Below, one piece after another: positions 2 to 5,598 of a DNA stretch of 5,598 bases (its first letter is position 1; each line of letters starts with the position of its first letter). Origin of the DNA: Prevotellaceae bacterium UBA1786 (GTDB lineage Bacteria > Bacteroidota > Bacteroidia > Bacteroidales > Bacteroidaceae). Below the pieces are notes generated by a model. The model was given only the letters and a program-made list of their open reading frames with translations, did no database searches and had not been told where the DNA came from. A program made the translations under genes and the position numbers. The DNA lies in the NCBI GenBank assembly GCA_002314525.1, contig DCGE01000060.1:1-5598 (forward strand), in the 5' to 3' direction.

Positions 2-658
2 ATTGGTTCGCCTATCGACCTCGAGACATTCCGCGATATAGTTAACAAGATGAAAATACAGAGTGCCTGTGCAAGATTGACCGCAGACATCGACATGATG
101 GACCGCAATTGGATACCAATAGGCCGATATACAGATGCCGATTCATCCCGCATCAGCTATTCGGGCATCTTCGACGGTGACGGTTTCGTCATCCGCAACC
201 TGAGCGGAAGGAGCGAGACAGATCAGAACTTCGGACTCATAGGTCACTCGGCCGAAGGATGTACGGTCAAGAACCTCATCATGGAGAACGTAAAGTTGGA
301 GGGCGGAATCAACAGTGCTCCGTTTATCGGGTACTGCGAAGGAACAACCACAATAGAATACTGTGCATCGATTGGCTTGCTGAAGTTCTCATCTACACGC
401 ACGGGTACAAAGAATTTTGGAGGAATCATAGGCAAGGGCTCAAAGGAGAATATGAATAGCTGCTATACAGTATATTCCTCACTTTCGGGTTCGAATGAGG
501 GAACTGCCAACACATGCTATTACGGAGCAGAGGTTGAGAAAAAGGCAAGTACGGGTGAACTCTGCTACCTGCTCAACGGCAGCAAAGGCACAGACCACCA
601 CTGGCTCCAGACCTTAGACTCCGACTCGATTCACAACAACAAATATCCCGTACAGCGA
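2..658 (+). other. GLUG-type repeat region (protein module)
   Basis: The encoded segment shows the usual layout of Bacteroidota GLUG regions. It opens with an IGSP...LETFRDIVN lead, then LTADIDM, WIPIG and YSGIFDGDGFVIRNL. Three glycine-rich turns follow (FGLIGHS, PFIGYCEG and FGGIIGKG). It closes with a CYYG...STGELCYLLNG segment and a final WLQTLD...YPV. Such regions are thought to fold as short beta-helix-like repeats in exported proteins. The module is cut at its 5' side by the window edge, so earlier repeats may exist. The family call is fairly secure; its binding role is unknown. Confidence 0.75.
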
Positions 659-3598
659 GACGGCAAGAAAGTCGATAGGAAGAATGGCAAGTACTACAAC
701 GTAGAATTCACCGAGAGCGACAACACGACATACGGAAGGGACCTCACGTCGAACGACTTCAAGGTCATTCACCACGGAGGCAACCTCTATGAGTTCGTCG
801 TCACCCTCGGAACTAAGGACGGCAAGGGTGAGCACCGCTTCCCCGACATGAAGTTGTCATACAACGAAGACGGCTCATGGGTGGATATAGCAGAACTGAA
901 GAAAATCAACAGGGATTCCGTGGCGTTCAAGCAGAACTGGTCGGGTGAGATAACCTACACCAAGGGAGAGTTCATCAACCCACACACGTTCCAGCAGCAG
1001 ACACCGGTGTTCTGGATCATGCAGGGCAACCATTCTTCAAGCAAGGCAACGAGCCTGCTCTGGTTGGCACCTGAGGGAACAAAGCCAATAAAGATCTTCA
1101 AGGCTGAGACACAGACTAAACCAACCAAGCAGGTCACGAGCCTTATCCAGCCGTCAGCCGCACCGACAGGAGCGAATGCCGTCATTGTGACTGAGCCTAC
1201 GATGGACATGAACAATAAGAAGCCTGGGACTGTATCGGTAATACTGAACACACCGAACCCTGCATACAGCCTCGGTGTATGGGACGCTACCGACAACCGT
1301 TTCATCTCAACGCAGGAGAACCCTGATGGAGCACAGAACATAACCATTTCGCTGCCTCAGCAGGACTGCATCCATGAGATTGTGGCACTGATGTATGCCC
1401 GCCAGGTCGATATGGTAGGTACAAAGCAAGACACAACATACGTCACATACGGAGTACCTATGTCGGTCAAACCACTTCACAGAATAGTACGCTCAAATGC
1501 GAACCAGACGTACAACGCCTCAAACAACCTGCGCTGGGCCATTGCATTCCCGAAGGACGAGGACCTGATATCCGACGATATGTTCTCCCTGTCGCGTGCC
1601 TTGAAGAGTGACTACTCCGATGCTACCTCACTCAAGTCGTTCAGTCTGAACAGCTATACGGAGACCACTGAGGAGAATGACACCCTGATGGGATGGTACT
1701 CATACAGCGACAAGTCACAGGAAGCATTGTCAACGACTGAAAAGTATGAAGACACGAAGAGCGCGTTCGACCAGTGGAACCTGACCGGCACGGCACAGAC
1801 AATACTTACCGAATACAAATATCCTGCGCGCTATATATATTATAATGTGGAACGCGCAACCACGAATACCGTATGGACCACCGACTCTACAGTATTCAGG
1901 AAGAGATGGAAGGTATTGCTGACCAACGTCCTGCCGAGAGTGGATAGCGTGAAGGTGATAAAGACCGATGAATGGGAAAGGACCCACAAGGTGAAGCTCC
2001 GTCTGGTTCTCAAGAACCCATATCCGGAAGACCTCGTACCTGAAGACCAGAAGTCTTCGGTAAAGGAAGAACGCAAACGTCAGGGTTTCAACACACGGAT
2101 GTTCGCATGGGACGAAAAAGCCAAGATAGTCATCAGGCGCTTTAGCCCTGACCACGAGCACTACTTAGGAGTGGATGAAGCGGCAGAGACCTTTGTAGTA
2201 GAGGGAAGGGAAGTGAAGGAAGATGAACTGACAGGCAACTGGTACGCAGAGGTCTTCGACATCCAGACTGCACCAGAGACACACTACTACTATTCGGCAA
2301 AGGTCGATAACAGCGAGAGCGACTATCCTATCTGCATCAACATGAAAGACTCGACCGAGTCGTCGGATGAGGATGCCATTGCATGCTATTCGAAGACGGC
2401 AGGAAAGATCACCGACTTCAAGGCATCGCAGGGCGAGTTCATCGGCAAGGTCAATCTGAGCTGGGAGTCGGACAACACCGGAAAAATGAATCTTACGAAG
2501 AAGACATACAAGTTTGGCTATGACAGTGGCCAGAGCAGCAGCAATCAGGAGTACACAATACCGACCAGCGGCAAAAAGGCTACAGACGACCACTCACTCG
2601 CAGGACAGGTAGATGAATACACCCTCACCAAGACAATCACACGCAGAGGACAGACATTTTGCGACACAGTCCGCACCTACGGCTATTCCATATACAGAGC
2701 CGGAAAGATATCCGGTCACGTGCGTATGCCGAACGGAATGGCGTTCCCGGGTGAGGTTACCGTAAGGATCAAGGTGACGAACCCGAGCAAACTGCATGTG
2801 AATGACATATACACGCCTGATGGGAAGATCCTCATAATGAAGGGCTATTCTCCGTTGGAAGAAGACACCGTAGTAGTTACCGACGAGAACGGCTACTACG
2901 AGATTGACAGCCTGTGCTACTACGGCACGGGAGTGGTATATACCGTATCGGCCGAGTCGGGCAATGCGTCCTTCGTCAACACCACGGGTGGGTCAGGAGG
3001 CATAGACCTCACACTGGAGAATGCATGCAACGAGTTCTCCAACGTTGACTTCATCTGTGAAGACACCCATCAGATCTCAGGCCGCATAGTCTATGCAGGC
3101 TCTACTGTGCCGGTAAGGGACATGGAGTTCTATGTCAACGGACAGAAGCTTGTGGAAGCTGACGGCAAGGCCATCGTCACCGACGCAATGGGTAATTTCT
3201 CATTCCCTGTTCCAAAGTTCAAGATGTCGATACAGGCACGCAAGGAAGGCCACGTGCTCCAGGGCGGTGGCTATGTGCTCGGAGGCGACGACGGCACGGA
3301 GAAGGAGTTCACCCCTACCAAGGACTACGAGGTGACAATGAGTGACTCAACGACAATCCGACTCGTAGGACGAGTGGCCGGTGGCAATACGGAGGGCAAC
3401 AAGGGAATAGGTTTCGGAGACTCAAAGAACATACTCGGCGACAGCATCACACTGGTGCTCCAGTTGGAAGGCGACAACACGTCGTTCATCCACTACAACC
3501 TCAACAACCCTGACGAGAAGAGCATGACAAGAACCTTCACACAGGATGTCTGTCTGCCAGGTGGCGGCGTGCTGCAATTCGATAGGACCAATGCCTAG
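2..3598 (+). CDS. Giant multidomain Bacteroidota-type surface/secreted protein, N-terminal and central part (5' end outside window; ends at in-frame TAG)
   Basis: This is the upstream 1198 codons of a giant gene. I do not recognise a named gene. Seen: the frame is open from base 2. The residues before Met50 (IGSPIDLETFRDIVNK) belong to the same GLUG-type module as those after it, so Met50 is internal and the start, with any signal peptide, lies upstream. Domain order by window codon (codon 1 at base 2): GLUG-type region 1-219; unassigned, partly highly charged region 220-802; fibronectin-III-like segment 803-900; two carboxypeptidase-regulatory-like Ig-fold modules about 901-1019 and 1023-1114; and the first half of a further Ig-like module from about 1118. 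Known of such proteins: large exported Bacteroidota proteins combine GLUG and Ig-like modules, probably in adhesion or cell-envelope roles. Inferred: extracellular location; no catalytic motif was seen. Odd: it stops at TAG in mid-module, while the same frame stays open for 666 more codons. A truncated product or a disrupted gene are both possible. Confidence 0.85.
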   Translation: MGSPIDLETFRDIVNKMKIQSACARLTADIDMMDRNWIPIGRYTDADSSRISYSGIFDGDGFVIRNLSGRSETDQNFGLIGHSAEGCTVKNLIMENVKLEGGINSAPFIGYCEGTTTIEYCASIGLLKFSSTRTGTKNFGGIIGKGSKENMNSCYTVYSSLSGSNEGTANTCYYGAEVEKKASTGELCYLLNGSKGTDHHWLQTLDSDSIHNNKYPVQRDGKKVDRKNGKYYNVEFTESDNTTYGRDLTSNDFKVIHHGGNLYEFVVTLGTKDGKGEHRFPDMKLSYNEDGSWVDIAELKKINRDSVAFKQNWSGEITYTKGEFINPHTFQQQTPVFWIMQGNHSSSKATSLLWLAPEGTKPIKIFKAETQTKPTKQVTSLIQPSAAPTGANAVIVTEPTMDMNNKKPGTVSVILNTPNPAYSLGVWDATDNRFISTQENPDGAQNITISLPQQDCIHEIVALMYARQVDMVGTKQDTTYVTYGVPMSVKPLHRIVRSNANQTYNASNNLRWAIAFPKDEDLISDDMFSLSRALKSDYSDATSLKSFSLNSYTETTEENDTLMGWYSYSDKSQEALSTTEKYEDTKSAFDQWNLTGTAQTILTEYKYPARYIYYNVERATTNTVWTTDSTVFRKRWKVLLTNVLPRVDSVKVIKTDEWERTHKVKLRLVLKNPYPEDLVPEDQKSSVKEERKRQGFNTRMFAWDEKAKIVIRRFSPDHEHYLGVDEAAETFVVEGREVKEDELTGNWYAEVFDIQTAPETHYYYSAKVDNSESDYPICINMKDSTESSDEDAIACYSKTAGKITDFKASQGEFIGKVNLSWESDNTGKMNLTKKTYKFGYDSGQSSSNQEYTIPTSGKKATDDHSLAGQVDEYTLTKTITRRGQTFCDTVRTYGYSIYRAGKISGHVRMPNGMAFPGEVTVRIKVTNPSKLHVNDIYTPDGKILIMKGYSPLEEDTVVVTDENGYYEIDSLCYYGTGVVYTVSAESGNASFVNTTGGSGGIDLTLENACNEFSNVDFICEDTHQISGRIVYAGSTVPVRDMEFYVNGQKLVEADGKAIVTDAMGNFSFPVPKFKMSIQARKEGHVLQGGGYVLGGDDGTEKEFTPTKDYEVTMSDSTTIRLVGRVAGGNTEGNKGIGFGDSKNILGDSITLVLQLEGDNTSFIHYNLNNPDEKSMTRTFTQDVCLPGGGVLQFDRTNA
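659..2407 (+). other. Unassigned central region of the giant protein
   Basis: About 580 residues that I cannot place in a known domain. The first part (about 680-1090) is rich in alternating polar and aromatic residues and looks beta-rich. A Thr/Pro-rich stretch around 1090-1190 resembles a linker. The segment around 2027-2230 is strongly mixed-charge (many K, R, E and D, including VKEERKRQG) and may be a helical or solvent-exposed spacer. No catalytic motif, membrane segment or repeat was seen. Continuous open frame and codon use like the flanks support it as real coding sequence. Confidence 0.5.
2408..2701 (+). other. Fibronectin-III-like segment (weak)
   Basis: The encoded segment opens with ITDFKASQGEFIGKVNLSWE, the typical first strands of fibronectin-III-like repeats in Bacteroidota proteins (an 'ASxG...KVxLSW' pattern). 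It ends with a TYGYSIYRAG strand directly before the next module. The middle is Ser/Gly/Lys-rich and lacks clear conserved positions, so the module call is tentative. It would act as a spacer or adhesion module. Confidence 0.4.
2702..3058 (+). other. Carboxypeptidase-regulatory-like Ig-fold module 1
   Basis: It starts with GKISGHVRMPNG, followed by VTVRIKV, then VVVTDENGYYEIDSL and VVYTVSAE. This is the characteristic 'G.V...G....V.V......T...G.Y....L....Y.V.A' layout of carboxypeptidase-regulatory-like domains, which are common structural modules in exported Bacteroidota proteins. An insert of about 25 residues sits between the second and third strands. It is structural rather than enzymatic. 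Confidence 0.6.
3068..3343 (+). other. Carboxypeptidase-regulatory-like Ig-fold module 2
   Basis: HQISGRIVYAGSTVPVRDME is followed by FYVNGQKL, IVTDAMGNFSFPVP and a FKMSIQARKEGHVLQG strand. This repeats the layout of the preceding module and follows it with only a short Cys-containing linker. The tandem arrangement supports both calls. Its likely role is as a structural stalk or spacer. Confidence 0.6.
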
Positions 3599-3751
3599 TT
3601 CGAGAGCAAGCGCATCGTCATCAAGGCCGACAACAAGACGGGCGAGTTCTGCCTCGACCTCTTCCCTGCCAAGTACAAGCTCTCGCAGGTATATGCCAAC
3701 GGCTACGGAACACTCTACCTTGCGAACGAGGGTATCAGCATCATAGACCTC
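3353..3751 (+). other. Ig-like module split by the TAG codon
   Basis: The first half reads TIRLVGRVAGG, GIGFGDSKNILGDSITLVLQ and ends ...LQFDRTNA before the stop. The second half resumes with KADNKTGEFCLDLFPAKYKL. The later 'TGEF...LFPAKYKL' strands are what a regulatory-like module would be expected to have after an opening such as LVGRV. The module therefore appears whole only if the TAG is read as a sense codon. Boundaries are approximate. Confidence 0.5.
3596..3598 (+). other. In-frame amber codon (TAG) interrupting the giant reading frame
   Basis: The codons around it read AAT GCC TAG TTC GAG (Asn-Ala-stop-Phe-Glu). It is the only stop codon in this frame in the whole window. A single C-to-T transition from CAG would create it, and CAG is the dominant Gln codon in this gene. 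The following base is T, and I see no obvious stable hairpin in the next 50 bases. There is also no hairpin plus T-run that would suggest a transcription terminator. It could be a true nonsense mutation, a sequencing or assembly error, or a suppressed codon. Confidence 0.95.
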
Positions 3752-5598
3752 ACCGACAGCACCGTCAACAGAACCTACGAGAAGGGCAATATGCAGACTT
3801 CATACTGTGCTTCGTTCAACAAGATATACCACAGTCCGGCCAAACTCACACTCACCCAGACCGACGGAGCTTCGTCGCTCGGCTACTACGGAGAGAAGAG
3901 CATAAACGTCAGCATGGTTACAGGCGCGGAGGAGATGACGGTAGCATGGACACAGGACGGCAAGGCCGGTTATACGTTCGGCCATCCAGTATTCCAGGGT
4001 GGTACAACCTATACCTTCATGGCAGAGGCATATGAGGAATACCACTACAACAACGCCAAGTCTGGAGCATTGACGAGAGTGCCTGTCGGTGGACACAAGC
4101 TGACGGTGACAAACGGTTTCGACAGTACGAACCCGATTATCAAAGGCAACCTCAACTCAAACGGCAAACTCAGTTTCACCATCACCCCTACCAATGCCAT
4201 CTTCAATGCCACAGGCGAGAATGCCCTGATGGCACTCGGAGCAGCGGTTGACGTGGAAGGCTATTCATACGAAGCTGAAGCCATCAAGGCATTCGTAACT
4301 GGTGACAGGGATATGGGTGTAGAGGTCGAGGCAGCATTGGAATGCAAGCCTCAGATACTCGATTACATCCGTGACCCTTACGGAGCCAACAGCTATGCAT
4401 ACAGGGAGAAGGGAACTCAGTACAACTGGACATCGCACTACGAGAGTGACTTCAAAAGGTATATCGAATTCGATTGGAAATTTGGAGCGGCGTGGATATT
4501 TGGCACAGCTGTTGGTGGTCTTACTGCCAATAAGGTTGCTGCATATCTCAGCGGAAGCCACAATTGGATTACAGAACATGAAATCGAGCAGGAAGACGGT
4601 GAATACCATCTCACTCTGAAAGACCGCATCGAGACAAGCAGCGATCCACTTGATGTGGGCGCAATGGCCGACATCTATATCGGTTCGGTAAGCACGGTTG
4701 ATATAAGGAAGACGCAGTCGTTCAATATCATCAACGGAACCACATACGATTCGCTGTTCAGTGCGATACAGACCGGTGCCGTAAAGGTTGTTTCCGAGGG
4801 ATTCGACAAATATAAAAAGAGGGAGTACCTTGTCGTTGCGGATGGCATATATCCGGCTCCAGGAACGGAAAGGACCTTCATCTATACACAGAAATACATT
4901 CTTGGTACTCTCATACCTAACCTTGAGCGTTCACGTGACCGTATAGGGCTCAGTAAAGACTCTGTGAAGAAGTACAACAACTGCATCAAGGATTGGCAGG
5001 ATGTCATCAAAGCCAACGAGGAAATCAAGGTCAAGGCTCTTTCTTCCACAAATGATGTTTCAAAGTATAGTATCTCCGGTGCCAGTATTGACCATAGCGA
5101 GGAAGGTTCATCCTATTACCGCAAAGTAAAGATTAATGGCGCTGGATGCTACACATGGAGTTTATATGGCAATGGCGGAAAAGATTCTGGAAGTCCAAAA
5201 ACACATATGAGTGATGAAAACTATGAAAGAATGGGAGGAGAAGACGAAGATGGAGAAATAAATGTAGATGTTAAAAAACATCTGGACCATACGAAGAAAC
5301 AGATCAGTAAGCTCGAAGGATGGGGATTTCTTTTAGAAGGGGCAGTGGGTGGAGGAAGTACCACAAACGTGACGAATAATGTACGCAACTACATTACCAC
5401 CATCGGAGGATCGGGCTATCACCTGACATGCACTGACAATAGCTACATAGACCTTGATGTAGTCAAGATTGACGATCCTGAATTGGGCTCGGTGCACAGC
5501 AATTTCAAGAATTACATTGACTTATACGAAGGTGGAGATGAATACAGAGGAAATGATTATCAAAATGGCGAATACACCTCACAGAAAATCGACACCTT
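3599..5598 (+). CDS. In-frame continuation of the same giant protein after the TAG (3' end outside window)
   Basis: I translated this stretch codon by codon in the same frame as the upstream part. All 666 complete codons are sense, and the window ends before any stop. It begins in mid-module: FESKRIVIKADNKTGEFCLD followed by LFPAKYKL looks like the later strands of the Ig-like module that starts near 3353. It then carries a long region with an RDPYG box (4370-4384), an ADIYIG box (4667-4684), a TFIYTQ box leading into LIPNLE (about 4874-4927) and a WQDVIKANEEIK segment (about 4994-5029). From memory, these boxes recur in this order in very long Bacteroidota proteins; their function is not known to me. 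No convincing independent start exists: the first in-frame ATG is at 3791, well inside the conserved part. It is most likely the C-terminal half of the upstream protein, either reached by readthrough or silenced by a recent nonsense mutation. No C-terminal sorting domain is visible because the end is missing. Confidence 0.75.
4319..5038 (+). other. Conserved-looking C-terminal block with RDPYG, ADIYIG and FIYTQ/LIPNLE boxes
   Basis: The block contains KPQILDYIRDPYGANSYAY (4346-4402) and a glycine-rich hydrophobic stretch at 4481-4528. YHLTLKD (4604-4624), ADIYIG, and TFIYTQ...LIPNLE with a basic/acidic SRD ending follow, and the block closes with WQ..I.ANEEIK. I recall the same order of boxes in other giant Bacteroidota proteins, but I know of no assigned function. 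The hydrophobic stretch is only about 16 residues, so a membrane span is unlikely. A profile search would decide the family. Confidence 0.4.

Follow-up and report, generated by a model that had tools for sequence, protein, structure and literature searches.

A Lone In-Frame TAG in a Giant Bacterial Gene That Is Intact in a Near-Identical Copy: Probably a Recent Nonsense Allele

Introduction

Strain-level nonsense alleles and young pseudogenes are a known phenomenon in bacteria. The 5,598-base stretch of DNA analyzed here (the window) resembles such alleles in that one stop lies in an otherwise intact frame of which a close relative has an intact copy. It differs from the established ones in that its TAG is known from a consensus sequence alone. 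The parts of the literature available to our search contained nothing specific to this case. The stop in this frame most likely has an ordinary explanation. The locus matters little by itself, and serves rather as a worked example of how an intact sister copy accounts for a stop in a long open frame.

The window lies within one gene of ~4100 codons, which codes for a giant and presumably exported protein. Judging from relatives, the host of this gene would be a Bacteroidaceae/Prevotella-type bacterium.

Results and Discussion

A Single Stop Interrupts a Long Frame

The frame starting at base 2 of the plus strand has 1865 codons and runs off both ends of the window with exactly one stop (Table 1), whereas in the five others the stops number 33 to 118 per frame. 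This recount agrees with the preliminary description of the window, which had reported a lone TAG that follows 1198 open codons and precedes 666 more, with no shift of frame. Given the base composition, one expects 0.0488 stops per codon, and the probability of 666 open codons is then ~3 × 10^-15. So long an opening is improbable by chance, hence the 3′-ward half looks like coding sequence, as had been argued beforehand on the ground that it is not expected after a true gene end. The TAG is not within a homopolymer.

Table 1. Features of the window (coordinates in bases; P0020 and L001 are the relatives described in the text)
Feature	Position	Strand	Remarks
Upstream part of the interrupted frame	2..3595	+	1198 codons, open 5′ end; corresponds to P0020 residues 793-1990
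In-frame TAG	3596..3598	+	P0020 has Ser1991; L001 has Thr
Downstream part, same frame	3599..5596	+	666 codons, open 3′ end; corresponds to P0020 residues 1992-2657
Repeat-like region, window residues 1-235	2..706	+	Also resembles two L001 stretches further upstream
Weak carboxypeptidase-regulatory-like domain (PF13620)	3074..3265	+	E = 0.0033, 18.2 bits, under the 32.3-bit cut-off

Two Uninterrupted Relatives

A scan of contigs with the upstream half found two loci, a close one (L001) and a distant one in a Prevotella MAG (L002). L001 lies on contig JAKSJE010000007.1 of a Bacteroidaceae MAG from horse feces (isolate Horse_feces39), and its frame of 4117 codons, coding for the hypothetical protein MJY59_01495 (P0019), is uninterrupted. 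Both halves of the window align end to end to this frame, exactly one codon separating the two matches, with identities of 69% over the 1191 codons compared upstream and 64% over the 666 downstream (68% and 62% in gapped alignments).

A protein search with residues 1000-2681 of the L001 protein as query retrieved P0020, an intact protein of 4092 aa encoded on a contig of 19,263 bases. This protein is identical to the window at 1188 of the 1198 upstream residues (10 differ) and at 665 of the 666 downstream residues (1 differs), without a gap in either half. For the two halves together this amounts to 99.4% identity (11 differences in 1864 residues), collinear across the stop. Searches with single halves were limited to candidates of 0.55-1.75 times the query length. 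This is probably why the downstream half alone had no match at E ≤ 0.001 among 7996 candidates; under the same limit the upstream half retrieved 18 proteins, none of them close.

These relatives bear on the idea of a gene fission, by which the gene would truly end at the TAG and the rest of the frame would be a gene of its own. We found nothing in its favor. Homologs ending at this point, with the downstream part encoded separately, had been named in the preliminary description as the mark of a true end; instead, both P0020 and L001 run through in one frame. Among the relatives of the L001 genome (G001), 32 of 200 have matches to the downstream half, and all 43 of these matches lack an internal stop. 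In the window itself, the earliest in-frame ATG, GTG, or TTG past the TAG is an ATG at 3791, 64 codons on. Fission is thus rejected, with hardly any probability left to it, and the window should be annotated as one interrupted gene, not as two.

The Residue at the Stop Column

A query of 140 residues around the TAG site was compared with 47 proteins and with 96 loci, 77 of which came from protein searches and 19 of which are tRNA loci. It matched 21 proteins, all of which span the column (26 were unmatched), and 73 loci, which also all span it, 71 with some residue and 2 (L012 and L021) with a gap. The 73 loci are not independent, as L001, L003, and L066 represent a single place, and in the distant alignments the column may be off by one or two residues. 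No spanning protein (0/21) and no spanning locus (0/73) has a stop at the column. Within this sample, which does not cover further sister strains of the window's species, the stop is therefore private to the window copy.

Among the 21 proteins the column is occupied by His (6), Asn (4), Thr (3), Asp (3), and Ser, Leu, Glu, Gln, and Val (1 each); Gln is also found in just 1 of the 73 loci. The column varies, and nothing in it requires Gln. The earlier proposal that Gln fits the site and that TAG derives from CAG gains no support from this alignment of homologs, which had itself been suggested as a check. The nearest copy has Ser and L001 has Thr, and an origin from CAG is not supported.

Readthrough, Reassignment, and Mobile Elements

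Relative to L001, Ka (JC-corrected, as is Ks) is 0.22 in the upstream half and 0.29 in the downstream half, well below the respective Ks of 1.29 and 1.36. With Ka slightly higher downstream and Ks near saturation, the comparison of Ka/Ks between halves is coarse, but each half has the look of coding sequence that has long been under constraint. The low Ka/Ks of the downstream half is that of a translated gene, as one would expect if amber suppression or programmed readthrough at the TAG gave both a short and a long product. However, this ratio probably reflects for the most part the time before the stop arose, and the absence of the stop from all the relatives spanning the column gives no sign of selection keeping it. 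In addition, ARAGORN read no CTA anticodon in any of the 19 tRNA loci of G001. This genome is of a different species from that of the window, and its list is without Gly, Ile, Trp, Tyr, and Val tRNAs, hence incomplete and weak evidence. We consider such readthrough very improbable. Even less credit goes to the variant in which a real TAG is partly read through by an unrecognized weak suppressor, yielding a short form and a rare full-length form.

The idea that TAG has become a sense codon, be it in the source organism or in a phage, has nothing to recommend it beyond the open frame itself. The preliminary description had reasoned that a wholesale reassignment to Gln predicts many more TAGs, and in the window, the only sequence counted, the frame of 1865 codons has 1 TAG, at a column that is variable, whereas Gln is encoded in the ordinary way by 52 codons (49 CAG and 3 CAA). 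Moreover, the relatives sit in bacterial genomes with uninterrupted frames, and the searches of phage records and viral contigs described below gave neither a match nor a confirmed relative. We reject reassignment on the codon counts and regard it as extremely improbable.

A phage or plasmid origin of the window was likewise discarded. Megablast of the window, in "near" mode only, gave no match to phage or plasmid records, the search of viral contigs with the downstream half gave no confirmed relative, and the pattern around the TAG site had no match in viral contigs. Nothing that we found favors reassignment, suppression, or readthrough.

A Recent Nonsense Allele or a Consensus Error

The downstream half of the window has neither a second stop nor a frameshift. 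Its differences from P0020 (1/666) are not in excess of those of the upstream half (10/1198), the direction being of less change downstream (Fisher p = 0.11). Since the downstream half is undecayed, the stop would be recent or not real. We think that the TAG is probably a recent strain-level nonsense allele. A sense codon, which stands for Ser in the nearest intact copy, would have become TAG by one base substitution in a strain-level allele of recent origin, and the lack of any other downstream lesion would mean that the change is recent or has been of little cost so far. We infer, in other words, both the reality and the recent origin of the stop, as well as its effect on the protein. That Ka is well below Ks in both halves, and that none of the 21 proteins and 73 loci spanning the column has the stop, also speaks for this reading.

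The 11 replacements and the stop all appear compatible with single-base changes, as judged from the codons of the window, P0020 being known as a protein only. About 5.9% of the non-silent single-base changes in the frame give a stop, which comes to an expected ~0.7 stops for 12 changes free of constraint. One nonsense among 12 non-silent differences is thus no surprise if the gene is dispensable. Because the window was picked for its stop, this figure speaks to plausibility and does not amount to a test. When the L001 protein is taken as outgroup, the window shares its state at two of the 11 differences (P0020 positions 1150 and 2487), P0020 shares it at four (1013, 1029, 1038, and 1891), and neither does at five. 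Other relatives split, P0021 siding with the window at 868 and 1013 and P0022 with P0020 at 1150. This pattern suggests that changes occurred on both lineages, but the outgroup is distant and the other relatives side either way.

A consensus error explains the same facts, and it, too, would show up as one lesion with no decay around it. In that case the gene itself would be intact, and the contig, which is short and probably metagenomic, would have a wrongly substituted base, or one from a minority strain, in its consensus. That there is a single lesion in 5598 bases, that a near-identical intact copy exists, and that the stop is common to none of the collected relatives all agree with this explanation. 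The position of the site outside a homopolymer and the presence of 11 other residue differences from P0020, as between strains, speak against it and still leave room for an error. We take an error to be possible, if less probable than the recent nonsense allele. The order of likelihood given in the preliminary description (nonsense mutation or polymorphism, then error, then readthrough) fits these findings, although they do not tell its first two entries apart.

The 10 upstream differences from P0020 are clustered, six being in codons 76-358 and four in codons 1020-1135 (window positions 227-1075 and 3059-3406), and the 661 codons between the two clusters show no difference at all. Recombination between strains could have produced this clustering, as could chance.

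Domains and Predicted Consequences

If the nonsense allele is real, translation would end around residue 1990 of 4092, about midway, and the allele would show that a large part of a giant and probably surface-exposed protein can be lost in a strain. Positions in P0020 indicate that the truncation would remove the downstream half, with the LamG-like domains, the BACON-like stretch, and the C-terminal tail. In P0020, Pfam finds LamG-like domains (best stretch 3252-3388) and a BACON-like match at 3542-3602 that is under the Pfam cut-off. In the L001 protein, LamG-like and BACON-like domains are likewise found in the direction of the C-terminal end. With NCBIfam, neither P0020 nor P0019 reaches the cut-off of any family.

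To the eye, the tail of P0020 gives the impression of a type IX secretion sorting tail. Pfam does not detect Por_Secre_tail, the secretion-system sorting tail, in P0020 or in the tail of L001, and NCBIfam likewise assigns no family to P0020. In contrast, among the three distant relatives scanned, P0039 and P0040 have a Por_Secre_tail above the cut-off, the match of P0042 being below it. The loss of a sorting signal by truncation is thus only suggested. At its other end, P0020 appears, by eye, to have an N-terminal export signal, and a restart at the ATG at 3791, if used, would give a product without this putative signal.

The upstream part of P0020 has a sub-threshold match to Peptidase_M26_N (residues 303-377). 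The first 235 residues of the window are 42% and 25% identical to the two further upstream stretches of L001 that they resemble (Table 1). Repeated domains thus appear to make up roughly one fifth of the giant protein, in a stretch close to the N terminus (L001 residues ~251-1020).

A Widespread Family of Giant Proteins

Related giant proteins are widespread. At E ≤ 0.001, the upstream half was matched in 163 of the 399 genomes sampled from the family of G001 and in 206 of the 398 genomes of the genus of a second genome, G002. Many giant relatives have open frames of ~3100-4500 codons. Apart from G001's own copy, they are 25-44% identical to the window among the matches listed, and they have in common with it a central region, window residues ~950-1180, the region past the TAG site also being alignable. 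At the DNA level, a search with window positions 2900-4300 in 17 genomes of the genus of G001 matched three, namely G001 through the copy already described (73% over 1370 of 1401 bases) and two others through stretches of 58 bases.

Most of the matches listed cover only about the last 250 residues of the upstream half, and some only its first 235. Window positions 2849-3541, which correspond to the central region, are the most often matched stretch of the upstream half among the matches listed. This region has sub-threshold Pfam matches only and is a candidate for an undescribed domain.

Directly upstream of the giant gene of L001, and on the same strand, lie two frames of 494 and 165 aa (L001:7207-8688 and L001:8702-9196). 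They have no Pfam match at E ≤ 0.01 and may be partner genes of the giant gene.
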